Assembly: GCA_016186995.1 (NCBI GenBank)
Contig: JACPKQ010000005.1
Location: 6,133 to 70,132, forward strand
Origin: Deltaproteobacteria bacterium
GTDB taxonomy: Bacteria > Bdellovibrionota > JACOXK01
Direction of reading: 5' to 3'
DNA length: 64,000 nt
Within the stretch, counting starts at the first letter, position 1, and each line of letters begins with the position of its first letter. The position numbers and the translations under genes were made by a program. Under the pieces are notes generated by a model, which made no database searches, had not been told where the DNA came from, and saw nothing but the letters and a program-made list of their open reading frames with translations. This document shows, in pieces, positions 4,832-48,460 of this stretch.

Positions 4832-5587
4832 TTAAAAGTAAAAAATTTTCTTCAAACTCAAGCCACAGGCTGGGGCTGTAGGGCCTCGAATCATATGAGC
4901 AGGATTTATCTGACCACTACCGACAAGATACATAGCACCCACAATGTTTCGAATCATATGTTTTAAAAATCCTGTTCCTTGAATTTTAAAAACAAGAAAA
5001 TCTTCTTCTTGTCTCCACGCAGCTTCTAGAATAGTTCGAAAAGTTGTTTTGGTACGACTGCCACTTGTTTGAAATAATCTAAAGTCATGTTCTCCTATTA
5101 AATATCCGCAAGCTTCATTCATGAGTAAAATATTTAATTTTTTAGGTCTCCACCAAGACATTGTTTTATCTTTCTTAGTTGGATTTTTTCCATTAAAAAT
5201 AGAGTACTCATAAAGTTTTGACACAGAGTCTTCCCGGGCGTGGAAACTATCTTGAACCTCTTCTGCCATAACAATACGAATATCTTCTGGTAAATATGAA
5301 TTTATTTTTTGAACACAACTATTCAAGGGACGGAACGCAGGGCTTCCTGGATTCCAGCTTGTGCCTACGGCTGTAGGCTGGAATGACGGAGGTGGTGTAA
5401 AATGAGCAACTTGGCCTTCTGCATGAACACCCGCATCTGTTCGAGAAGCCCCATAAATAATCACCTTTTGATGAAATATTTTATAAAGTGCTTCTTCTAT
5501 TTTTCTCTGTATTGTGGGGCGTGTTTTCTGCCTTTGCCAGCCTAAATATTTGGCTCCATTATATTTTATAGTGAGTTTTATTTTCAT
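4832..5587 (-). CDS. truA: tRNA pseudouridine(38-40) synthase TruA
   Basis: 251 residues. Converts U38-U40 of the tRNA anticodon arm to pseudouridine in the cytoplasm. The catalytic Asp sits in the conserved ASRTDAGVHAEG motif (about residues 47-58), and the ends (N-terminal KYNGAKYLGWQRQ, C-terminal HMIRNIVGAM) fit the family. About 20 residues (roughly 68-86) are encoded by a palindromic repeat inserted in frame, which explains a segment absent from typical TruA. The gene ends next to the 65-bp direct repeat and faces tRNA-Lys. Confidence 0.93.
   Translation of the reverse strand: MKIKLTIKYNGAKYLGWQRQKTRPTIQRKIEEALYKIFHQKVIIYGASRTDAGVHAEGQVAHFTPPPSFQPTAVGTSWNPGSPAFRPLNSCVQKINSYLPEDIRIVMAEEVQDSFHAREDSVSKLYEYSIFNGKNPTKKDKTMSWWRPKKLNILLMNEACGYLIGEHDFRLFQTSGSRTKTTFRTILEAAWRQEEDFLVFKIQGTGFLKHMIRNIVGAMYLVGSGQINPAHMIRGPTAPACGLSLKKIFYF
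5346..5389. repeat. Palindromic repeat inserted inside truA
   Basis: ATTCCAGC (5351-5358) and GCTGGAAT (5377-5384) flank an 18-nt loop, with the usual TGACGG tail. It is translated in frame within TruA and belongs to the same subfamily as 7846-7879. Confidence 0.85.
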
Positions 5588-5659
5588 ACAATCCTTGTTA
5601 TTTTTCTCTTACTTATTTTAATTTTTTGCGATATACAAGAGAGACCTTTAGAAATATGT

Positions 5660-5735
5660 GGGTTCGTAGCTCAGTTGGTAGAGCAGCTGACTCTTAATCA
5701 GCGGGTCGAAGGTTCGATCCCTTCCGGACCCACCA
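5660..5735 (+). tRNA. tRNA-Lys (anticodon CUU)
   Basis: 76 nt with an encoded CCA. The acceptor GGGTTCG pairs with CGGACCC, the anticodon stem GCTGA/TCAGC closes a loop with CTT, and the T arm GAAGG-TTCGATC-CCTTC is intact. It reads AAG lysine codons. A weak promoter (TATACA near 5634) may lie just upstream. Confidence 0.97.
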
Positions 5736-5765
5736 CTTATTTCTCCCCCAAATAGGCTTATTTCC

Positions 5766-45787: not shown

Positions 45788-45789
45788 TG

Positions 45790-45818
45790 TTCAAACAGTA
45801 TTCTCTCCTCTCTATTAT
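45790..45818 (+). promoter_or_regulatory. Promoter next to the M16 peptidase start
   Basis: TTCAAA (45790-45795), 17 bp, TATTAT (45813-45818), five bases before ATG 45824. This fits a leaderless transcript and argues against the longer ORF start at 45770, which overlaps the divergent LAB_N gene. Confidence 0.4.
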
Positions 45819-45823
45819 TGTCA

Positions 45824-48460
45824 ATGTTCAGAGACGTGTTACTCTTTAAAGATATGCATCTAACTCTTTCTCAGGGTCTTAAAGTTACGGTTGAAGAATC
45901 CCATCGTTCTCCTGTTGTTTCAGCTCAAATTTGGCTTGATGTGGGTAGTTTTCACGAAGGAAAGGGCGAAGAAGGTGTAGCTCATTTTTTTGAACACATG
46001 CTTTTTAAAGGAACTCAACGGAGAAAACTAGGCGAAATAGCACAAGAAGTTGAATCTCATGGTGGAGAAATGAATGCCTATACGAGTTTTGATCAGACGG
46101 TATATTATATCACCATTCCCTCTCGTCACTGGGCATTAGCCCTAGATATATTATCCGATGCAGTCCTTCATCCACTTTTTGATCCACAAGAAATAGAAAA
46201 TGAAAAACTTGTCGTCTTTGAAGAAATGGCAAGATCCCACGACTCTCCTCATGATATGGCAAGTGAACTGTTACTCAAAAACATTTTTCAAAACCACCCT
46301 TATGGTAAACCTATCTTGGGGAAAAAAGAAACAATCCAAAATTTAAATCAGAAAAAACTCATTCAGTTTCATAGAAAATGGTACACACCCAATCGAATGA
46401 CACTTGTTGTAGCAGGCGATGTGAACTCAAAAAATATATTGGCACAAGCCAAAAAACTTTTTTCACATAAAAAAAAATCTCCAATCAAAAAAGACTGGAT
46501 TCCCCGATCAAGTCGGGGGATGACATTTTATTTCCGGGATGACTATTTTAAAAAAAAACTTACCTTTTGTCTTAAACCAGCACATATCCAACTCTCTCAC
46601 TCTCACTTAGCTTTTCTAACTCCACCTGTTGTACACTCAGATATCCCAAAACTTGATCTTTTATCTTCTATTTTGGGACATGGAGAAAGCAGTCGCCTCT
46701 ACGTCGCCACAAAAACGAAGAAAAAATTAACAAGTTCCATTCACTGTGGAATCTATACATTAAAAAAAGCAAGCGTATTTTATATTTCTTCTGTTCACAT
46801 CCCAGAAAATCTTATTCCCCTCACAAGAGAAATTGTTACACAAATCAATAATATCAAATTAGCTCATATCACCCCACAAGAGATAGACATTGCTAAGAAA
46901 AACATCTTAAGTGAAAAAATCTATGAAAAAGAAACAACAGATGGTCTTGCACGTAAGGTAGGCTTTTATGCTACTTATTTTAATAATCCAGGAGAAGAAC
47001 AGAAATATTATGAAAGTATCAAAGATACAACCACTTCAGAACTTAAAGACATAGCTCATAAATATTTAAATCTTTCTCAGTCGACTTTTGTTAATTTATA
47101 TCCTGAAAAATACTCCCCAAAAATAAAAGAATTTAAAAACATGATGAGATCGCCACGGTTTCTTTTGAGAACCCTCGCGATGACAAGAGAAAAAACAACT
47201 CATAAAATAAAACAAAAAAGTATTAAAAAATATGTTTTGAATGGCTTGACCGTCCTTTTTGTTGAAGATCACTCGCTACCTATCATTTCTATGAGAGCAA
47301 CTTTTTTTGGAGGTTCTCTCTATGAAACAAAGCAAAAAATAGGTCTTACACAGGTACTCACCCGTGCCATGACAAAAGAAACTTTGGAAACTTCGCAAAT
47401 AGAGCTCGCTCAAAAAGTAGAAGAAATAGCAGGAAGTTTAGAGGGTTTTAGTGGTAGAAACAGTTCTGGACTCAGCTTAGAATTTTTAAGTGAATATGAA
47501 AACCTAGCACTAGACCTTTTCTTTGAAATCTTACTGCACCCAAAATTCTCTCCTAAAATACTCTCTTATCTCAAAAAACAAACTCTTGAAGAAATAAAGT
47601 ATGAAGAAGATAATCTTGCAAGCAAAGCTTATAATAATTTCCTTAGAAAACTATATCCCCATCATCCTTATGGATATCCACTTAATGGTACTCCACAAAC
47701 AATAACCTCACTAAAAACTAAAAATCTCTTCAAAGCTCATAAAAGCATTTTCATTCAAAATCCTGGAATATTAACTATCGTGGGAAGCTTTTCGGAAGAC
47801 TTTAGAGAAAAAATTATTGAAGCTGCTAAAAAATGGGAGAAAAGAACTAAGCCCCATAAAAAATTTCCTAAAATTCTACCTTTAAAATCAAATCAGGAGC
47901 TTTATGAGCACAAAACTAAAAAACAAGTCAATATTATACTTGGTTTTTTAGGAGCAAAAATTTCGGATCAAGACCGTTACGCTCTACACATACTTTCTAC
48001 AATCCTTTCTGGACAAAGTGGAAGACTTTTTATGAATTTAAGAGATAAAGAAAGTTTAGCTTATTCACTTCATGCAAGTAATATAGAGGGACTTCTACCA
48101 GGACATTTTTATTTTTACCTAGGTACCTCCCCAGAGAAATTAGGAAAAGCTTTAAATCTACTTAAAAAAGAAATTGAAACCCTTAGAAAGGAAAAAATTT
48201 CAAGAACAGAAATAACAAGAGCCAAAAAATATATTATAGGAAAGCATGAAATGAGTTTGCAAAAACTGAGCACCCAAAATGCCTATTATTCTTTTGATGA
48301 ACTTTACGGATTAGGATACGCAGAAACTTTAAATTACCATAAAAAAATTTCTCAGATAACTCAAAAAGATTTAGAAAAAGTGATTCACAAATATCTAAAC
48401 TTAAATTCTTCTATTTTATCTGTTGTAGGCCCTGTAAAGAATAAAACAACTGATAAATAA
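45824..48460 (+). CDS. M16-family zinc metallopeptidase, tandem-domain
   Basis: About 878 residues from ATG 45824. The N-terminal half has the inverted zinc motif HFFEH with the downstream Glu in ENEKLVVFEEM. The second half repeats the M16 fold without an HxxEH and serves as the inactive half of the clamp (as in pitrilysin-like or PqqL-like proteins). No signal peptide is visible from this start. Two palindromic repeats (46499-46521 and 47142-47184) are translated in frame, the latter in the linker between halves. The 3' end overlaps the convergent permease gene by 45 bp. Confidence 0.85.
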   Translation: MFRDVLLFKDMHLTLSQGLKVTVEESHRSPVVSAQIWLDVGSFHEGKGEEGVAHFFEHMLFKGTQRRKLGEIAQEVESHGGEMNAYTSFDQTVYYITIPSRHWALALDILSDAVLHPLFDPQEIENEKLVVFEEMARSHDSPHDMASELLLKNIFQNHPYGKPILGKKETIQNLNQKKLIQFHRKWYTPNRMTLVVAGDVNSKNILAQAKKLFSHKKKSPIKKDWIPRSSRGMTFYFRDDYFKKKLTFCLKPAHIQLSHSHLAFLTPPVVHSDIPKLDLLSSILGHGESSRLYVATKTKKKLTSSIHCGIYTLKKASVFYISSVHIPENLIPLTREIVTQINNIKLAHITPQEIDIAKKNILSEKIYEKETTDGLARKVGFYATYFNNPGEEQKYYESIKDTTTSELKDIAHKYLNLSQSTFVNLYPEKYSPKIKEFKNMMRSPRFLLRTLAMTREKTTHKIKQKSIKKYVLNGLTVLFVEDHSLPIISMRATFFGGSLYETKQKIGLTQVLTRAMTKETLETSQIELAQKVEEIAGSLEGFSGRNSSGLSLEFLSEYENLALDLFFEILLHPKFSPKILSYLKKQTLEEIKYEEDNLASKAYNNFLRKLYPHHPYGYPLNGTPQTITSLKTKNLFKAHKSIFIQNPGILTIVGSFSEDFREKIIEAAKKWEKRTKPHKKFPKILPLKSNQELYEHKTKKQVNIILGFLGAKISDQDRYALHILSTILSGQSGRLFMNLRDKESLAYSLHASNIEGLLPGHFYFYLGTSPEKLGKALNLLKKEIETLRKEKISRTEITRAKKYIIGKHEMSLQKLSTQNAYYSFDELYGLGYAETLNYHKKISQITQKDLEKVIHKYLNLNSSILSVVGPVKNKTTDK
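46499..46521. repeat. Palindromic repeat inside the M16 peptidase gene
   Basis: ATTCCCCGA, short loop, TCGGGGGAT followed by GACATT, and a second TTTCCGGGATGAC end. Translated in frame (residues about 226-243). Confidence 0.8.
47142..47184. repeat. Palindromic repeat in the inter-domain linker of the M16 gene
   Basis: GATGAGATCGCCACGG to CCTCGCGATGACAAG, the same subfamily as the purL and BaiN-like insertions; translated in frame (MMRSPRFLLRTLAMTR). Confidence 0.8.

Follow-up and report, generated by a model that had tools for sequence, protein, structure and literature searches.

In-frame palindromic repeats of the CGTC-REP type within conserved genes of a small-genome deltaproteobacterium-like host

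Seven conserved proteins encoded in the window (the whole stretch of 64,000 nucleotides analysed here, bases 6133–70132 of contig C27 of the source MAG) contain segments that are read in frame from short palindromic repeats. With a probability of about 0.86, these segments are copies of a small CGTC-REP palindrome that has spread through the genome, and of which the frame-open copies at exposed sites have been retained. An earlier note on this DNA had named truA, a BaiN-like gene, a SplB-like gene, purF, purL, selA and an M16 peptidase gene as carriers of such repeats in several reading frames and both orientations; every gene named was found to carry them in frame, the coordinates and copy counts (four in SplB, two in PurF and two in M16) were correct, and the varied frames and orientations were borne out. 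The MAG comprises 1.68 Mb in 30 contigs with 36% GC, and is 93% complete. Its PurF shows 48–59% identity to named genomes, the matches being mainly deltaproteobacterial, campylobacterial or alphaproteobacterial, and is about 76–77% identical to that of the nearest genome compared (G001, same family).

Each repeat opens with a [C/T]GTC tag and closes with a CCA or CTA tail; between these, two complementary stem arms, the first with A(T/C) at its start, enclose a loop. Self-comparison of the MAG gave 420 repeated regions, and a genome-wide search for GTCA[TC] tags followed by stem and loop gave 319 elements at 303 places, compared to 12–38 with scrambled tags; the detector demanded GTCA[TC] and at least 7 of 8 stem pairs, and the percentage of paired positions is thus partly built in by selection. 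TGTC is the most frequent tag, present in 204 of the 242 elements of one search. The tight form with an 8-bp stem and a 4-nt loop is found in 81 copies genome-wide against 0–2 with scrambled tags, in a search where the first stem base was fixed as A, and has chiefly GAAG or GAAA loops and a tail of CCA (50 copies) or CTA (21 copies). The two sides of the stem covary, with 50 two-sided changes compared to 12.8 in shuffles, and a covariation score of 0.40 that falls to 0.17 or less when slid. Neighbours located at most 30 bp apart are predominantly head-to-head (34, with four tail-to-tail and two in tandem), and ATGAC/GTCAT is present at 31 per kb within the elements, 5.1 per kb in the 80-bp flanks and 1.6 per kb elsewhere. 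On average 4.0–4.2 of the six frames are open through an element, compared to 3.4 in random pieces and 3.7 in shuffled elements; the repeat body is GC-rich with few stop codons and is therefore easily read through in most frames, which makes a tolerated insertion easier.

Larger composite intergenic repeats are located at positions 28680–28818, 38011–38395, 39194–39614, 49546–49848 and 63836–64000 of the window, and palindromes are nested in several of the composite copies. Their AGCGAGCCATGAAGCG core, which marks a separate, longer repeat family, has 43 copies genome-wide, with window copies at 28727, 39236 and 49620, and none of the 43 is found inside a gene of at least 120 aa.

The genome-wide catalogue proposed in the earlier note counts 98 elements, 86 of which are internal, in 77 genes with a length of 120 aa or more. 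The genic share is 98 of 303 (32%) at a coding density of 86%, so that genes hold fewer elements than their share of the genome would predict. BLAST found further repeat copies in the genome for 83 of the 98, and perhaps the other 15 are therefore chance hairpins. In genome-wide alignments to homologues, 29 elements could be tested, and their net insertion had a median of 13 aa (83% with 6 aa or more), whereas 3,209 random control positions in the same alignments had a median of 0 (2.7% with 6 aa or more). A single open frame was kept by all 30 elements for which both flanks match one homologue, with no gene splits, and the same repeat DNA recurs across many unrelated genes and intergenic regions.

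In truA (4832–5587, minus strand) a CGTC-REP with the stem ATTCCAGC at 5342–5402 on the minus strand adds 17 aa, with a net gain of 16 to 17 residues compared to all nine homologues. The HI0933/BaiN-like gene (5766–7046, plus strand) contains a head-to-head dimer (ATTGC... / ATCACGAGG...) at 6171–6276 on the plus strand, adding about 34 aa, which is a net +34 compared to six of seven homologues and +27 compared to the remaining one. The SplB-like gene (7086–8369, minus strand) has four sites, all on the minus strand: a cluster of the TGTCACCCTGAG... type with half copies at 8189–8257 (about 18 aa added), a REP at 7837–7883 (16–17 aa), a CGTC-1 REP (GTCATTCCCGC/GCGGGAATC) at 7702–7740 that is read as DSRLRGND (9 aa), and a REP at 7086–7128 that makes up the C terminus; the three internal sites have a net gain of 18, 16 to 17 and 9 residues, respectively, compared to 4–5 homologues. 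In selA (34854–36302, minus strand) a REP with the stem ATCCCGGA and a half copy, at 35107–35186 on the minus strand, give a net +8 to +12 compared to relatives, and about 26 residues are unmatched in the comparison with A. aeolicus SelA. The internal site of purF (9118–10644, minus strand) at 10026–10066, also on the minus strand, lengthens the protein by 20 aa at a point between two beta strands, net +20 compared to 21 of 25 homologues and +15 to +17 compared to the others. When mapped on an AlphaFold model made from 32 sequences (mean pLDDT 78), as the earlier note had suggested for the inserts, this segment is predicted to form a low-confidence coil between strands 186–191 and 212–217.

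Homologues of TruA, the BaiN-like protein, the SplB-like protein and PurF, taken from within the family, the class and the phylum, are without the segments, as are the solved structures of TruA, PurF and SelA, and the conserved blocks around the inserts are whole in TruA, SelA, the SplB-like protein and PurF. Comparison with relatives or solved structures confirms the repeat-encoded segments as in-frame insertions in TruA, the BaiN-like and SplB-like proteins, PurF and SelA, and the search of homologues for the same segments favours insertion in five of the seven proteins. The earlier statement that the repeats are insertions holds for these five and not fully for the other two. In the M16 peptidase gene (45770–48460, plus strand) a REP and a half copy at 46496–46544 on the plus strand have a net +8 to +14 in a poor alignment, which weakly suggests an insertion. 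The second M16 site, a REP with the stem ATCGCGAGG at 47138–47189 on the plus strand, encodes an interdomain linker that varies among relatives, with a net difference of -20 to +33, and in purL (10637–12304, minus strand) a head-to-head dimer at 11059–11154 on the minus strand encodes a likewise variable linker, with a net -70 to +5. Both are REP-encoded, but since they are found in variable linkers they are only candidate insertions. The placement in loops or termini was also described correctly, except that at the C-terminal sites of SplB and PurF the repeat takes the place of the C terminus or lengthens it, and is not positioned between conserved blocks.

The CGTC-REP would spread as single hairpins and head-to-head pairs, landing in and between genes, and a genic copy would survive only if its frame is open and it lies in a surface loop, a linker or a terminus, so that the survivors would be read as 8–35 extra residues. 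We infer that selection acts as the filter and that the effect on the proteins is near-neutral. Movement would involve an enzyme recognising the tag and the hairpin. In the 93%-complete genome no match to Y1_Tnp/RAYT (PF01797) was found, and there were no clear CGTC-REPs around 20 Y1 loci of relatives; mobilisation by a RAYT/Y1 protein was therefore rejected, and mobility is deduced from copy number and insertions only. IS110 (PF01548) was rejected as well, since none was found in the genome. A search for empty sites with joined flanks, aimed at the target-site duplication that a MITE would have, hit only intergenic repeats nested in other repeats and revealed no such duplication, nor did it yield a clean pair of an empty and a filled site; identity to the nearest relative is about 76% in PurF.

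The lack of a REP-type transposase in the genome would also fit palindromes that are not mobile, and that arise or spread by template switching during replication or by gene conversion between hairpins. The strong stem covariation points in the same direction, and so does a pair of REPs at two paralogous intergenic sites, C15:276–298 and C9:25346–25368, that differ by paired, compensatory changes within near-identical flanks, as if the stems had been replaced or corrected in place. This explanation is nevertheless unlikely, as the net insertions found in many unrelated genes call for transfer of the element to new sites, which template correction alone would not bring about, and the regular head-to-head dimers suggest a moving unit.

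The C-terminal site of purF is made up of a CGTC-1 REP and second hairpins at 9145–9258 on the minus strand, forming a new C terminus in place of the FCxACF motif. This end is conserved in relatives but missing here, with REP-encoded sequence instead (window 9118–9258), and the tail is predicted to be disordered in the AlphaFold model, with a pLDDT below 50. The two cysteines of FCxACF are iron-sulphur ligands in the B. subtilis enzyme, so that the PurF copy without the motif may have lost its cluster. PurL ends after 555 aa right at the start of purF (window 10637–10644), compared to 745–761 aa in relatives, and a search of the 93%-complete genome did not turn up the missing C-terminal part of about 180 residues; the short form is either a deletion or an assembly error.

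Both PurL, with its C-terminal residues gone, and PurF, with its FCxACF end replaced by a REP, may be decaying genes, and the genome is small, so that the repeats might mark genes that are losing function in a shrinking genome, where insertions would be tolerated because of that loss and not through neutrality of the sites. The size distribution of carriers agrees with this: a match to the CGTC-1 consensus, with one mismatch allowed, is present in 13 of 368 genomes from the phylum, namely 12 of 48 at 2.0 Mb or less and one of 320 above (Fisher p ~8e-11, in a test that ignores kinship among the genomes, includes incomplete genomes and takes the 48 from rounded sizes). Decay is an improbable explanation, however, as it should lead to frameshifts and a single open frame is retained in each of the 30 intragenic copies that could be tested, and the blocks around the inserts in TruA, SelA, the SplB-like protein and PurF are intact.

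That the segments belong to the ancestral proteins or are just ordinary variable loops, with incidental DNA palindromes, is highly improbable, and refuted for the five clear proteins: the linkers of PurL and M16 site 2 do differ in length by tens of residues from one relative to another, a few elements are without net insertion (-5, +2) and for 15 of the 98 elements within genes there is no copy elsewhere, but the segments are absent from the homologues and solved structures named above, and the same DNA is found in many unrelated genes and between genes.

The spread of a CGTC-REP with retention of frame-open copies remains the preferred reading. The carriers of CGTC-1 are distributed over several families of the phylum. 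A further, speculative proposal, which we consider doubtful, is that several small-genome lineages of the phylum were invaded by CGTC-REPs independently of each other; the repeats would be moved by a system other than Y1, with recognition of the GTC tag and the hairpin shape and not of the stem sequence, and would keep altering protein-coding genes through in-frame hairpins. The relative G002, for which orthologues were compared over 800 kb and selected loci, has in-frame REPs of its own at other sites. At two G002 loci, the SplB-like C terminus (L245) and the PurL linker (L232), the relative has REP-like coding sequence of its own where these two proteins vary, which suggests that the sites are tolerant. 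Protein-coding palindromes are hereby no longer peculiar to Rickettsia but an outcome that recurs in a small-genome lineage unrelated to it; frame retention could be measured cleanly (30 of 30), G002 serves as a second marked genome for comparison, and the link to small genomes gives a testable prediction on when such repeats spread. That no transposase was found bears on the question, raised in 2013, of how CGTC-REPs move.

Among known repeats, the REPINs and GTAG-REPs with RAYT transposases (PMC2817692, PMC3116915) are similar in being short hairpins with an unpaired tag and in forming inverted pairs, but they have another tag, and no Y1/RAYT gene was found in this genome. RPE-1 to RPE-3 of Ogata et al. 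are 100–150 bp and poor in ATGAC (PMC3767692); they are likewise protein-coding, in-frame palindromes, but of a different kind judging from size and ATGAC content. The parallel with the Rickettsia palindromic elements drawn in the earlier note is right, and its statement that the sequences are different applies to RPE-1 to RPE-3 as regards size, and not to the elements discussed below.

According to the R. japonica paper, ATGAC is the signature of RPE-4, -6 and -7 and of extended inserts (PMC3767692). The repeats described here share the GTCAT/ATGAC ends with these and resemble them (eRPE-4) in being ATGAC-ended palindromes with half copies, in the in-frame insertion into conserved genes, in the differing repeats at nearby sites in relatives, in the exposed location, and in the enrichment of ATGAC/GTCAT in the flanks, as in eRPE-4 (PMC3767692). 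The eRPE-4 sites are common to Rickettsia species, whereas the TruA, BaiN-like, SplB-like and PurF sites, compared with relatives outside the genus, are mostly unshared even within the class.

The closest agreement is with the CGTC-REPs, which according to Di Nocera et al. 2013 (PMC3733652) have a CGTC, TGTC or CCTC tag, an 8-bp stem starting with AT, a 4-nt loop, a short CCA tail and head-to-head dimers, are without a dedicated transposase, and are found in frame within genes mostly in R. conorii and O. terrae; the type CGTC-1 is there equated with Neisseria dRS3 and R. conorii RPE-6. The unpaired CGTC/TGTC tag, the AT-initial 8-bp stem, the 4-nt loop and the CCA tail are all present here, head-to-head dimers dominate, some copies are in frame in genes, and no dedicated transposase was found in this genome. 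The short form fits CGTC-1, a match made to the text description in that paper, and the differences are the small-genome, deltaproteobacterium-like host and the larger number of stem variants with bigger loops. Judged by their form, the repeats match the CGTC-REP superfamily, and would comprise CGTC-1 together with ATGAC-ended variants like RPE-4, -6 and -7; as the superfamily includes RPE-6, they are not unlike the Rickettsia sequences in general. The match to the published CGTC-REPs and to the RPE signature indicates that the phenomenon itself is known and that the host lineage is new.
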